In this document: positions 39,230-42,280 of the stretch, piece after piece
Layout: each line of letters starts with the position of its first letter
Numbering within the stretch: position 1 is the stretch's first letter
Source of the DNA: Calditrichota bacterium
Lineage (GTDB): Bacteria; Zhuqueibacterota; Zhuqueibacteria; Zhuqueibacterales; Geothermadaptataceae
DNA length: 64,000 nt
Assembly: GCA_008501765.1 (NCBI GenBank)
Contig: QQUE01000002.1
Location: 928,336 to 992,335, forward strand
Direction of reading: 5' to 3'
Notes under the pieces: generated by a model
Seen by the model: only the letters and a program-made list of their open reading frames with translations
Databases searched by the model: none
What the model was told of the DNA's origin: nothing
Translations under genes and position numbers: made by a program

Positions 39230-41377
39230 ATGATGAGAAAGCTACAGCAATTCTTTTTCGGCACGCTAACAGTTGCACTTCTTTTTACTAATCTGGTGCA
39301 GGCGCAATCAAACCGTTGGGAACCGACTAACGGCCCGTTTGGTGGTGTTGCTCAGGCCATGACCATTACTTCCACCGGCGATATTTTTATTGGCAGCCGG
39401 TCCGGTATTTTTAAGTCGACCGACAATGGAGAAACCTGGGTGAAAAAAAATAATGGTATGAATTCGAGTTTTATAACCAGCCTGGTCGTGAACTCCGCGG
39501 ATATACTATTTGCAGGAACCACAAATATCGGGATTTACAGATCCGAAGACGGAGGGGAGAGTTGGCAAACAATCAATTCCGGCTTGACGCGTGTTAATGT
39601 ACAGTCCATAGATATTAATGCGAATGATGCGTTATTCATTGGCATCGATGGCGACGGGGTTCATTATTCTGAAGATAATGGGGATACCTGGACTGCCAAA
39701 AATAATGGTTTGGCAGATTTGAGAGTATTTGCCGTTGCAGAAAATTCAAATGGTGATATCTATGCGGGCACTATCGCAACCGGTATTTATCGCCTGGCGG
39801 CAACTGATACAGCCTGGGTTGCGCTCTCCTCTGGATTGTCAAATTTAAGATGCGATTCTTTCGAGACAAACGCTGATGGAGAAGTTTTCGCTGGTATGGG
39901 AAGAGGGGTTTATAAGTTGGCGGATGATGATACCACCTGGATTGAGCACAAGAATAATGCGAATAATCTTGGATTTGTGACCTCTCTGTATTTCAGTGCG
40001 AGCAACGAATTGTTCGCATCATCTCTCGCTGGCCTGCACCGTTTTGATGCACAAACCGGAGATTGGGTCCCACTGAATAATGGTGTGACTAATTTAAGAA
40101 CATGGGCTATTTTGCAAAATTCAGCAGGAGAATTATTCGCAACCTCGGATGCTGGTTTCCTGTATTCCGAGGACAACGGTGAAAACTGGTTGACTCGCGT
40201 TAATGGTTTTAAAACGGCGCGAATAAGTGGGATTGTTGATTGCCCGGATGGCAGCATACTGGCGAGTACAGAAAATAATGGTATTTTTCGTTCCTCTGAT
40301 GCAGGTACAAATTGGGAACCTGCCAATAATGGCCTGTCTGCATTGGCAGTTCGAAAAATGGTTATGGATTCCAGTGGGACAATATTTGTCGGTGTTTCCG
40401 GATCATCAGGAGTATTCCGGTCGGATGACAATGGAAATTCCTGGGTAAATGTCAAAAAAGGTTTGGCCAGTTCGTCAATTATGGCCCTCATAGTTTCAAA
40501 TGGGGCAGTTTATGCGGCGCCGTCAAATTTGGGTGTCTTTCATTCAAATGATAATGGTGACAACTGGCTCGCCCTGCCTGACAGCGGTTTGACAAACAAA
40601 AGCATCCGGGCTTTGGCAGTAAACTCGGATGGGGTGCTGTTTGCTGGAACCTGGAATGGAGGAATATTTAAAATTACTGTGAATGATACTGTTTGGACTG
40701 AGGTTAATAACGGCTTAACAAAATTATTGGTCACTGCACTCGTAATTAATGAGAAAGGTTTTATTTTTGCCGGAACTTCGGGTGGTGGCGTTTTTCGTTC
40801 GTCGGATAATGGTGAAAACTGGGTAGATATTAATGAAGGTTTTATCTCCAAATCGGTTCTCACATTGGCGATTTCTCCTTTCGGGCAGGTTTTTGGAGGG
40901 ACAGCCGGTGGTGGCGTAATTTTTACCGCAAACGATGGGGACAATTGGACAGAGTTGAAAGATGGACTCGGAAATATGACTATTAACGCGTTAACAGTCA
41001 CCCCAACCGGTCAAATTTATGCTGGTACAGCCGGTGATGGTGTTTTTCGTAGTACTGAAATGATTACTTCAGTTCAAAAAATGACTGAAAATATTCCATC
41101 TGATGTTGTCTTGCATCAGAATTTTCCGAATCCGTTCAATCCTGAAACCACCATTAGTTTCACAATGAATAATCCAGTAGAAGTTAGCTTGAAAATTTTT
41201 GATATCCGTGGTAGAGAAATCCGATCGTTGTTACAATCCAAGCAACCTGCGGGACACAATTCCGTTGTCTGGGACGGTCGGGACTCAACCGGGCGGAAGG
41301 TTGTCAGCGGCCATTATGTTTATCAGATTAAATCGGCGGGAAATAGAATTTCCCGGAAAATGCTGCTGCTGAAATAA
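39230..41377 (+). CDS. Secreted Asp-box (BNR) propeller protein with C-terminal sorting domain
   Basis: 715 residues. A signal peptide (ending VQAQ, about 24) is followed by many Asp-box-type repeats with S-x-D-x-G-x-x-W cores (STDNGETW, SEDGGESW, SEDNGDTW, SDDNGNSW, SSDNGENW), which build one or two beta-propellers (about 25-620). The end, LHQNFPNPFNPETTISF through GHYVYQIKSAG and MLLLK, is the FlgD-like Ig module used for type IX-style secretion or surface fixation. The ligand or enzyme activity is unknown; no catalytic sialidase residues are evident. AAGGAGAATT precedes two adjacent ATGs. It follows the hybrid sensor gene by 226 bp. Confidence 0.82.
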   Translation: MMRKLQQFFFGTLTVALLFTNLVQAQSNRWEPTNGPFGGVAQAMTITSTGDIFIGSRSGIFKSTDNGETWVKKNNGMNSSFITSLVVNSADILFAGTTNIGIYRSEDGGESWQTINSGLTRVNVQSIDINANDALFIGIDGDGVHYSEDNGDTWTAKNNGLADLRVFAVAENSNGDIYAGTIATGIYRLAATDTAWVALSSGLSNLRCDSFETNADGEVFAGMGRGVYKLADDDTTWIEHKNNANNLGFVTSLYFSASNELFASSLAGLHRFDAQTGDWVPLNNGVTNLRTWAILQNSAGELFATSDAGFLYSEDNGENWLTRVNGFKTARISGIVDCPDGSILASTENNGIFRSSDAGTNWEPANNGLSALAVRKMVMDSSGTIFVGVSGSSGVFRSDDNGNSWVNVKKGLASSSIMALIVSNGAVYAAPSNLGVFHSNDNGDNWLALPDSGLTNKSIRALAVNSDGVLFAGTWNGGIFKITVNDTVWTEVNNGLTKLLVTALVINEKGFIFAGTSGGGVFRSSDNGENWVDINEGFISKSVLTLAISPFGQVFGGTAGGGVIFTANDGDNWTELKDGLGNMTINALTVTPTGQIYAGTAGDGVFRSTEMITSVQKMTENIPSDVVLHQNFPNPFNPETTISFTMNNPVEVSLKIFDIRGREIRSLLQSKQPAGHNSVVWDGRDSTGRKVVSGHYVYQIKSAGNRISRKMLLLK

Positions 41378-41419
41378 GGAAAATTTTCCGGATTCCATCC
41401 CGAAAATAGTCCATATTTC

Positions 41420-41477
41420 GTATTATGAAATCATTCCGACTACAACATATTGTTACGACGGAAAGATTTCATAATAC
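41420..41477. repeat. 58-nt A/T-rich palindromic hairpin
   Basis: GTATTATGAAATC (41420-41432) and GATTTCATAATAC (41465-41477) are perfect 13-bp complements. The interior keeps partial symmetry (CCG/CGG, ACA/TGT). It lies 43 bp after the stop of the propeller gene and 52 bp before the candidate structured RNA. Its low G+C and lack of a U-run argue against a simple terminator. Confidence 0.7.
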
Positions 41478-41529
41478 AATACAAATAGCTCTGAGTAATT
41501 ACTGCTGTTCTTTCACCAGAACGGCTCAA

Positions 41530-41668
41530 ATTAATCCCCCAAACGGAGGTTCCCGGGTAGCAGGTGTTTTTTACCTGCGTATCGAGTGGCCGGAATACTC
41601 GCCACGTACAGGCCCATCCATACGCCCGGAAAGGCACCGGTCTACTCGGGAACCTGGGTGAGTTTAAT
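41530..41668 (+). ncRNA. Candidate structured RNA (multi-helix junction, unknown class)
   Basis: Helix P1 pairs AGGTTCCCGGGTAG (41547-41560) with CTACTCGGGAACCT (41642-41655): 14 bp, with one G-U pair when read as plus-strand RNA and a mismatch when read as minus-strand RNA, which favours the plus strand. Outer pairs ATTAA/TTAAT and CCC/GGG extend it. Inside are P2 (CAGGT/ACCTG, 41561-41577), P3 (CGTAT/ATACG, 41578-41582 with 41620-41624) enclosing CGAGT/ACTCG or alternatively GTGGC/GCCAC, and P4 (CCGG/CCGG, 41626-41640). It is markedly more G+C-rich than its surroundings and has no coding frame. It does not match tmRNA, SRP RNA, RNase P, 6S or a riboswitch class I know. It could be a small RNA, a 5' leader of the cupin gene, or an end of a lost mobile element. 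Confidence 0.45.
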
Positions 41669-41775
41669 GTCCGCAGGATTTGTGTTTTAATAATCACCGA
41701 AACAACTCTGTGTCACTCATCTCGTTTTTTCAACAGAGCGAAATAAATCAGTCTGGTACACGATAATAAGTCGGC

Positions 41776-41814
41776 CTGCAATTATAAAAAACGGGTCGGC
41801 ATTTTAAATTGCAG
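41776..41814. repeat. 8-bp inverted repeat upstream of cupin gene
   Basis: CTGCAATT (41776-41783) and AATTGCAG (41807-41814) are perfect complements, 104 bp upstream of the cupin start. It may be a leader hairpin or an operator. Confidence 0.4.
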
Positions 41815-41917
41815 AAAATTTAGTGAATAATTTCATGGAAATTTGAATGAAAGAATTATCTTTTCTGTGAATTCGAAATAACTCTGTTGTTAGCCTACTA
41901 TTTTCAGGAGCTTTGGC

Positions 41918-42280
41918 GTGGGAAAAAAAATTAATTTTAATGAAAAATTTTCTATGTTTTCAGAATACTGGGCACCGCGAGTCATCGCAGAAATGAATGA
42001 TTATCAGTTCAAACTCGTTAAAATTAGCGGAGAATTTATCTGGCATGACCATAAGAAAACCGACGAGGTGTTTATCGTAATTGAGGGAAAAATGGGCATA
42101 GAATTCCGGGACCGAAAAGTTGAATTATCAGCAGGTGAAATGTTTGTGGTACCCAGGGGTGTTGAACACAAACCTTACGCCGCTGAAGAATGTAAAGTAC
42201 TGTTGGTGGAACCAAAAGGTATTAAAAATACCGGTGATTCGGAGGGAAACTTGACTGCAGAAAACGATGTCTGGATTTAA
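41918..42280 (+). CDS. Cupin-domain protein
   Basis: 120 residues, a single small beta-barrel cupin. The metal-binding motif 1 reads [22 protein letters not shown] (His-x-His-...-Glu) and motif 2 PRGVEHKP (His), as in small phosphomannose-isomerase-like cupins. It may bind a metal and a small ligand. The start codon is GTG with AGGAGC 7 nt upstream. It is 250 bp downstream of the candidate structured RNA, with which it could share a transcript. It converges with rsgA. Confidence 0.8.

Follow-up and report, generated by a model that had tools for sequence, protein, structure and literature searches.

Published descriptions of REP, BIME and REPIN sequences name GTAG tags, inverted doublets and clusters as their hallmarks, and their mobility is attributed to RAYT proteins, which have been proposed to cut single-stranded hairpins. 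Such repeats are short palindromes with many dispersed copies per genome, located at extragenic sites and grouped into inverted pairs or clusters. In REPINs and BIMEs (Bertels and Rainey 2011, PMC3116915), two inverted REPs and a spacer form one long hairpin or cruciform; intergenic dispersal, tandem clusters and compensatory changes have been observed as well. For the GTAG-tagged REP superfamily (Di Nocera et al. 2013, PMC3733652), the main text describes GTAG beside a short hairpin, GTAG ends that mostly lie outside ('head-head dimers') and a preference for gaps between tandem and convergent genes.

Here we report on a palindromic block within a stretch of 64 000 nucleotides (the window) from the genome of a Calditrichota bacterium. 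The repeat family to which it belongs shares with REPs, BIMEs and REPINs the dispersed and mostly intergenic copies, the inverted pairs with a spacer that form one long hairpin or cruciform, the tandem clusters and the compensatory changes. It differs from the REPINs in that no adjacent RAYT gene was found and in that the stem is free to vary while the outer anchors are conserved on both sides. The superfamily, as far as its main text goes, is matched by GTAG beside a short hairpin in many units, by the mostly outward GTAG ends and by the preferred gene gaps; the differences are a variable tag (GTGT, GTAA, GTAT), longer conserved anchors and a T-rich loop. We conclude, with a probability of roughly 87%, that this block represents a decayed doublet of REPs of the BIME/REPIN type and a member of a genus-centred repeat family.

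Results

The block lies in the interval 41378–41917, between an upstream propeller ORF (39230–41377, +) and a downstream cupin ORF (41918–42280, +). It is G+C-rich, is found 167 bp past the propeller stop codon, and is followed by the cupin start codon after about 260 bp. The interval contains a single ORF of at least 80 aa, which is antisense (85 aa) and traverses the palindrome. The initial annotation had described a 14-bp closing helix enclosing inner hairpins, and this palindrome proved to be real (Table 1): the fold of the + strand was more stable than those of 200/200 shuffled sequences (z −3.40). The − strand surpassed 198 of 200 shuffles (z −2.69), a similar strength that is expected because the block is a palindrome. 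Searches of Rfam at gathering and permissive thresholds gave no credible match on the block, which the initial annotation had been unable to match to a known RNA family.

The attC ends of integrons carry R boxes of the form RYYYAAC ... GTTRRRY. Read directly, the ends of the block, AGGTTCCC...GGGAACCT, do not fit these boxes, and an integron attC site was rejected.

Two further features were noted in the window. An AT-rich inverted repeat with 19-nt arms (95% complementary) and a 20-nt spacer is located just past the propeller gene, at 41420–41477; a search of its own genome gave no convincing other copies, and it is apparently single-copy. A tmRNA gene was found at 479–836 on the − strand (Rfam RF00023, 171 bits).

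Table 1. Positions of the block, its parts and its flanks in the window, and of RAYT-type genes in the same genome
Feature	Position	Strand	Basis or details
Closing helix, left arm (unit 1 outer anchor)	41547..41560	+	Repeat search; 14 nt, 93% complementary to 41642–41655
Closing helix, right arm (unit 2 outer anchor)	41642..41655	+	Repeat search
REP unit 1	41544..41597	+	R1 covariance model match, 65 bits, E 8.3e-16; regular-expression match
Unit 1, anchor		+	TTCCCGG
Unit 1, GTAG tag	41557..41560	+	
Unit 1, hairpin	41560..41578	+	GCAGGT-GTTTTTT-ACCTGC
Unit 1, anchor		+	TATCGAGTGG
REP unit 2, inverted, more degraded	41605..41658	-	R1 match, 52.6 bits, E 3.1e-12
Unit 2, anchor			TTCCCGAG
Unit 2, GTAG tag	41642..41645	-	
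Unit 2, small hairpin			
Unit 2, anchor			TATGGATGGG
AT-rich left flank, common to window and C1 copies, direct orientation	41511..41545	.	Local alignment score 34, against a maximum of 28 in 2000 shuffles
AT-rich right flank, common to window and C1 copies, direct orientation	41665..41738	.	Score 57, against a maximum of 32 in 2000 shuffles
RAYT-type gene L129	G000:C20:86232		Own palindromes: GTAG-tagged inverted pairs
RAYT-type gene L128	G000:C10:5705		Own palindromes: GTGCCAGGCAC
RAYT-type gene L130	G000:C4:24030		Own palindromes: CCCTTGCGAAGG

Within the genome from which the window is taken (G000), a search revealed a second, better preserved copy (the C1 copy), the match covering G000:C1:2815-2964 and the doublet G000:C1:2848-2963. 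The core of both copies consists of two inverted units. The C1 core is 89% identical to that of the window and lies in inverted orientation, and the AT-rich flanks are about 70% identical in direct orientation, both being supported by shuffles. Folding of the C1 copy gave an ideal doublet (z −7.2), in which the outer anchors form the closing helix, each unit forms one hairpin and the two tails pair in a 16-bp helix. It thereby has the four-helix shape that had been proposed for the window copy, with a different P3 made of the paired unit tails. Among the inner helices of that proposal, P2 (41560–41578) and P4 (about 41626–41640) held up, and P3 (GTGGC...GCCAC, as reconstructed from its description) is broken in the C1 copy.

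We mapped the 42 pairs of the C1 fold on the window copy and found that 33 were the same, one was kept as a G-U pair, seven were broken and one fell in a gap. No pair among the 42 had been rescued by a double change. The window copy appears to be decaying, with pairs lost without compensation; with two copies at hand, the direction of change was judged by the family consensus. The same comparison bears on the strand. The closing helix contains a single G-U pair (41556/41646), and the initial annotation had noted that it is fully paired on the plus strand only. Here the window reads CCCGGGTAG where the consensus of the family is CCCGAGTAG, and an A-T pair occupies this position in the C1 copy; the G-U thus looks like one later mutation. 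The plus-strand point hinges on this one substitution, and the sense strand is therefore not indicated.

Further units were sought with R1, a covariance model built for a single unit; at most 150 candidates were scored per genome, so that its counts are lower bounds and true numbers may be higher. In the three same-genus genomes, R1 found at least 47 units in the window's genome, at least 78 in G002 and at least 11 in G001, fewer than the >100 copies usual for REPs in model genomes. In 23 other related genomes it gave one weak match each in two and none in the remaining 21. A wider search of 388 genomes added a few clear relatives: in G064, G040 and G076 the anchors are the same but the stems differ strongly. 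The weak matches L223 (G299) and L224 (G045) were judged by eye and rejected as probably due to chance. The family is centred on the genus of the window's organism. Among the papers listed by an open-access text search for the family anchor strings, none with a match concerned bacterial repeats, and the main text of Di Nocera et al. 2013 (PMC3733652) does not contain them. REP doublets are an ordinary kind of genomic repeat, and the present family is apparently a new one of that kind and, by the open-access text and Rfam searches, apparently undescribed.

The units share a common layout: GCATCC[CT]GAGTA, a stem of ~6–10 bp, a T-rich loop, the stem complement and TATCGA[AG]GGG. Related units with other stems were present in the two same-genus genomes and elsewhere in the window's genome, some of them as tandem arrays, and copies of the family often form inverted pairs or tandem arrays. 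The stem cells of 28 distinct Y-type units were paired in 155 of 168 cases versus 110.8±5.3 when whole arms were reassigned, the sorting into Y and Z types by best pairing offset being approximate and somewhat biased toward paired units. Pairing has therefore been kept while the stem sequence changed. A check of homologues for covariation, as the initial annotation had suggested, thus revealed covariation in the inner stems; the family behind it is palindromic on either strand, and an RNA is therefore not singled out. Both units of the block carry the GTAG tag, as do 21 of the 28 distinct Y-type units, other types having GTGT or GTAT; in many units of the family, GTGT or GTAA/GTAT replaces it.

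At 46 sites the genomic context was determined from mechanically called ORFs, short genes such as the cupin gene being left out as neighbours. By this measure 42 of the 46 sites were clear of long ORFs, and 33 were located between tandem or convergent genes. The end of the right flank in the window (41718–41740) matches the motif CGCTCTGTTTAAAAAACGGTATG, which is dispersed in the same genome. As an observation apart from the units themselves, the dispersed motif TTTCGCTCTGTTTAAAAAACGGTATG occurs in about ten copies in the genome (window 41718–41740; loci L206–L213 and L175), often near CTCACAGAGCC...CACAGAG. The flank common to the window and C1 copies has this motif as its right end, and another mobile repeat may terminate in it.

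The window's genome carries RAYT genes. An R1 match within about 1.5 kb of RAYT/Y1 genes was found at none of 54 loci, and the three inspected RAYT genes of this genome are flanked by palindromes other than those of the present family (Table 1). Each of the three has palindromes of its own, and several REP-like systems therefore coexist in the genome.

Discussion

The block was originally put forward as a candidate new structured RNA and possibly as a leader of the cupin gene. The stable fold of the + strand, the location upstream of the cupin start codon and the covarying inner stems of the family would agree with a new regulatory RNA or a cis-acting leader; however, dozens of dispersed copies adjoin other genes, Rfam gave no match and the pairs of the window copy were lost without compensation. 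The cupin neighbourhood in the same-genus genomes also argues against it. No cupin match at E 1e-8 was found in G001, where the syntenic segment stops at the neighbouring GTPase gene, and the cupin homologue of G002 (48% identity, perhaps not an orthologue) has a doublet of the family downstream and none upstream. In neither genome does the block lie upstream of the cupin gene, which makes its conservation as a cupin leader unlikely, and we regard a new structured regulatory RNA or a cis-acting leader at this site as highly improbable. A REP by origin could also have become a transcription terminator or a stabilizer of the mRNA 3' end of the propeller gene. Such roles have been proposed for REPs in the literature, and the location 167 bp past the propeller stop codon and the placement of most family copies between tandem or convergent genes are consistent with them. 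Yet the T-run lies in the loop and not past the stem, what resembles a terminator in this region matches the consensus weakly and the window copy is decayed, so that we consider such a function conceivable but unlikely.

In G002, ten doublet copies have exact common ends, the inverted repeats GGGGCTGTrTCAAAACAT (element ends GGGGCTGTGTCAAAACAT), about 285 bp apart, and 52 matches to this terminal repeat were found in this incomplete genome. The doublet is the core of the resulting terminal inverted repeat (TIR) element at loci L189, L190, L195–L200 and L202, a fixed unit like that of TIR-bounded MITEs. The AT-rich flanks common to the window and C1 copies, the right one of which ends in a dispersed motif, would also suit a miniature inverted-repeat transposable element that was moved by a classical transposase and had captured the hairpin units as cargo. 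But no match to the terminal repeat occurs in the window's genome, G001 has a single doubtful one, and yet REP units are dispersed in both; nor did seven other sampled doublet loci of G002 have such ends. At the window copy, the right-end motif was found and no matching left-hand terminal repeat. Neither an autonomous partner of the ~285-bp element in G002 nor, near a longer TIR pair (G002:C397), an obvious transposase among the listed ORFs was found. We therefore judge it improbable that the doublet is by nature the core of such an element. As the TIR is absent from the window's genome, it seems that in G002 a different element captured the doublet.

We thus return to the decayed REP doublet. 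In single-stranded DNA each unit would form a hairpin, and a RAYT-type (TnpA-REP) single-strand transposase that recognizes hairpins would have spread the doublet in trans. RAYT genes are present but the family adjoins none of those examined, and mobilization in trans is therefore what we infer; it is the weakest link of the explanation, and we give it even odds. The family is REP-like in its behaviour, we do not claim its membership in a RAYT system, and the cognate gene may have been lost. The window copy would now be an inactive relic, whose only remaining effect, if any, would be a generic side effect as palindromic sequence in the 3' region of the propeller transcript. The suggestion that the block is a relic of a mobile element came close to this reading, REP doublets being of a kind regarded as mobile.

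Besides the lack of an adjacent RAYT gene at the loci examined, further findings count against a REP doublet moved by RAYT proteins. The stems vary far more than is typical of a RAYT-linked REP family, and many units have GTGT or GTAA/GTAT in place of GTAG. In addition, the window and C1 copies differ in the orientation of the entire core with respect to its flanks, a flip that a simple insertion model does not predict. Possibly, though we hold it doubtful, this is a REP-like family without an adjacent RAYT gene in which the outer anchors are recognized and the stem need only fold, which would leave the stem free to evolve. Such a family would be spread by an unrecognized single-strand nuclease and, in G002, as the hitch-hiking core of the TIR element, and the flipped core would be a trace of hairpin-mediated inversion.

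Our results remove a candidate new RNA class and put a repeat family in its place. They also point to a pitfall: single-sequence folding combined with covariation in a family can make a dispersed REP doublet resemble a structured RNA. In the present family the anchors are conserved, the stems vary freely but stay paired, no adjacent transposase was found and, in one genome, a TIR element seems to have captured the doublet; with it one can cleanly ask what in a REP is read by the mobilizer.
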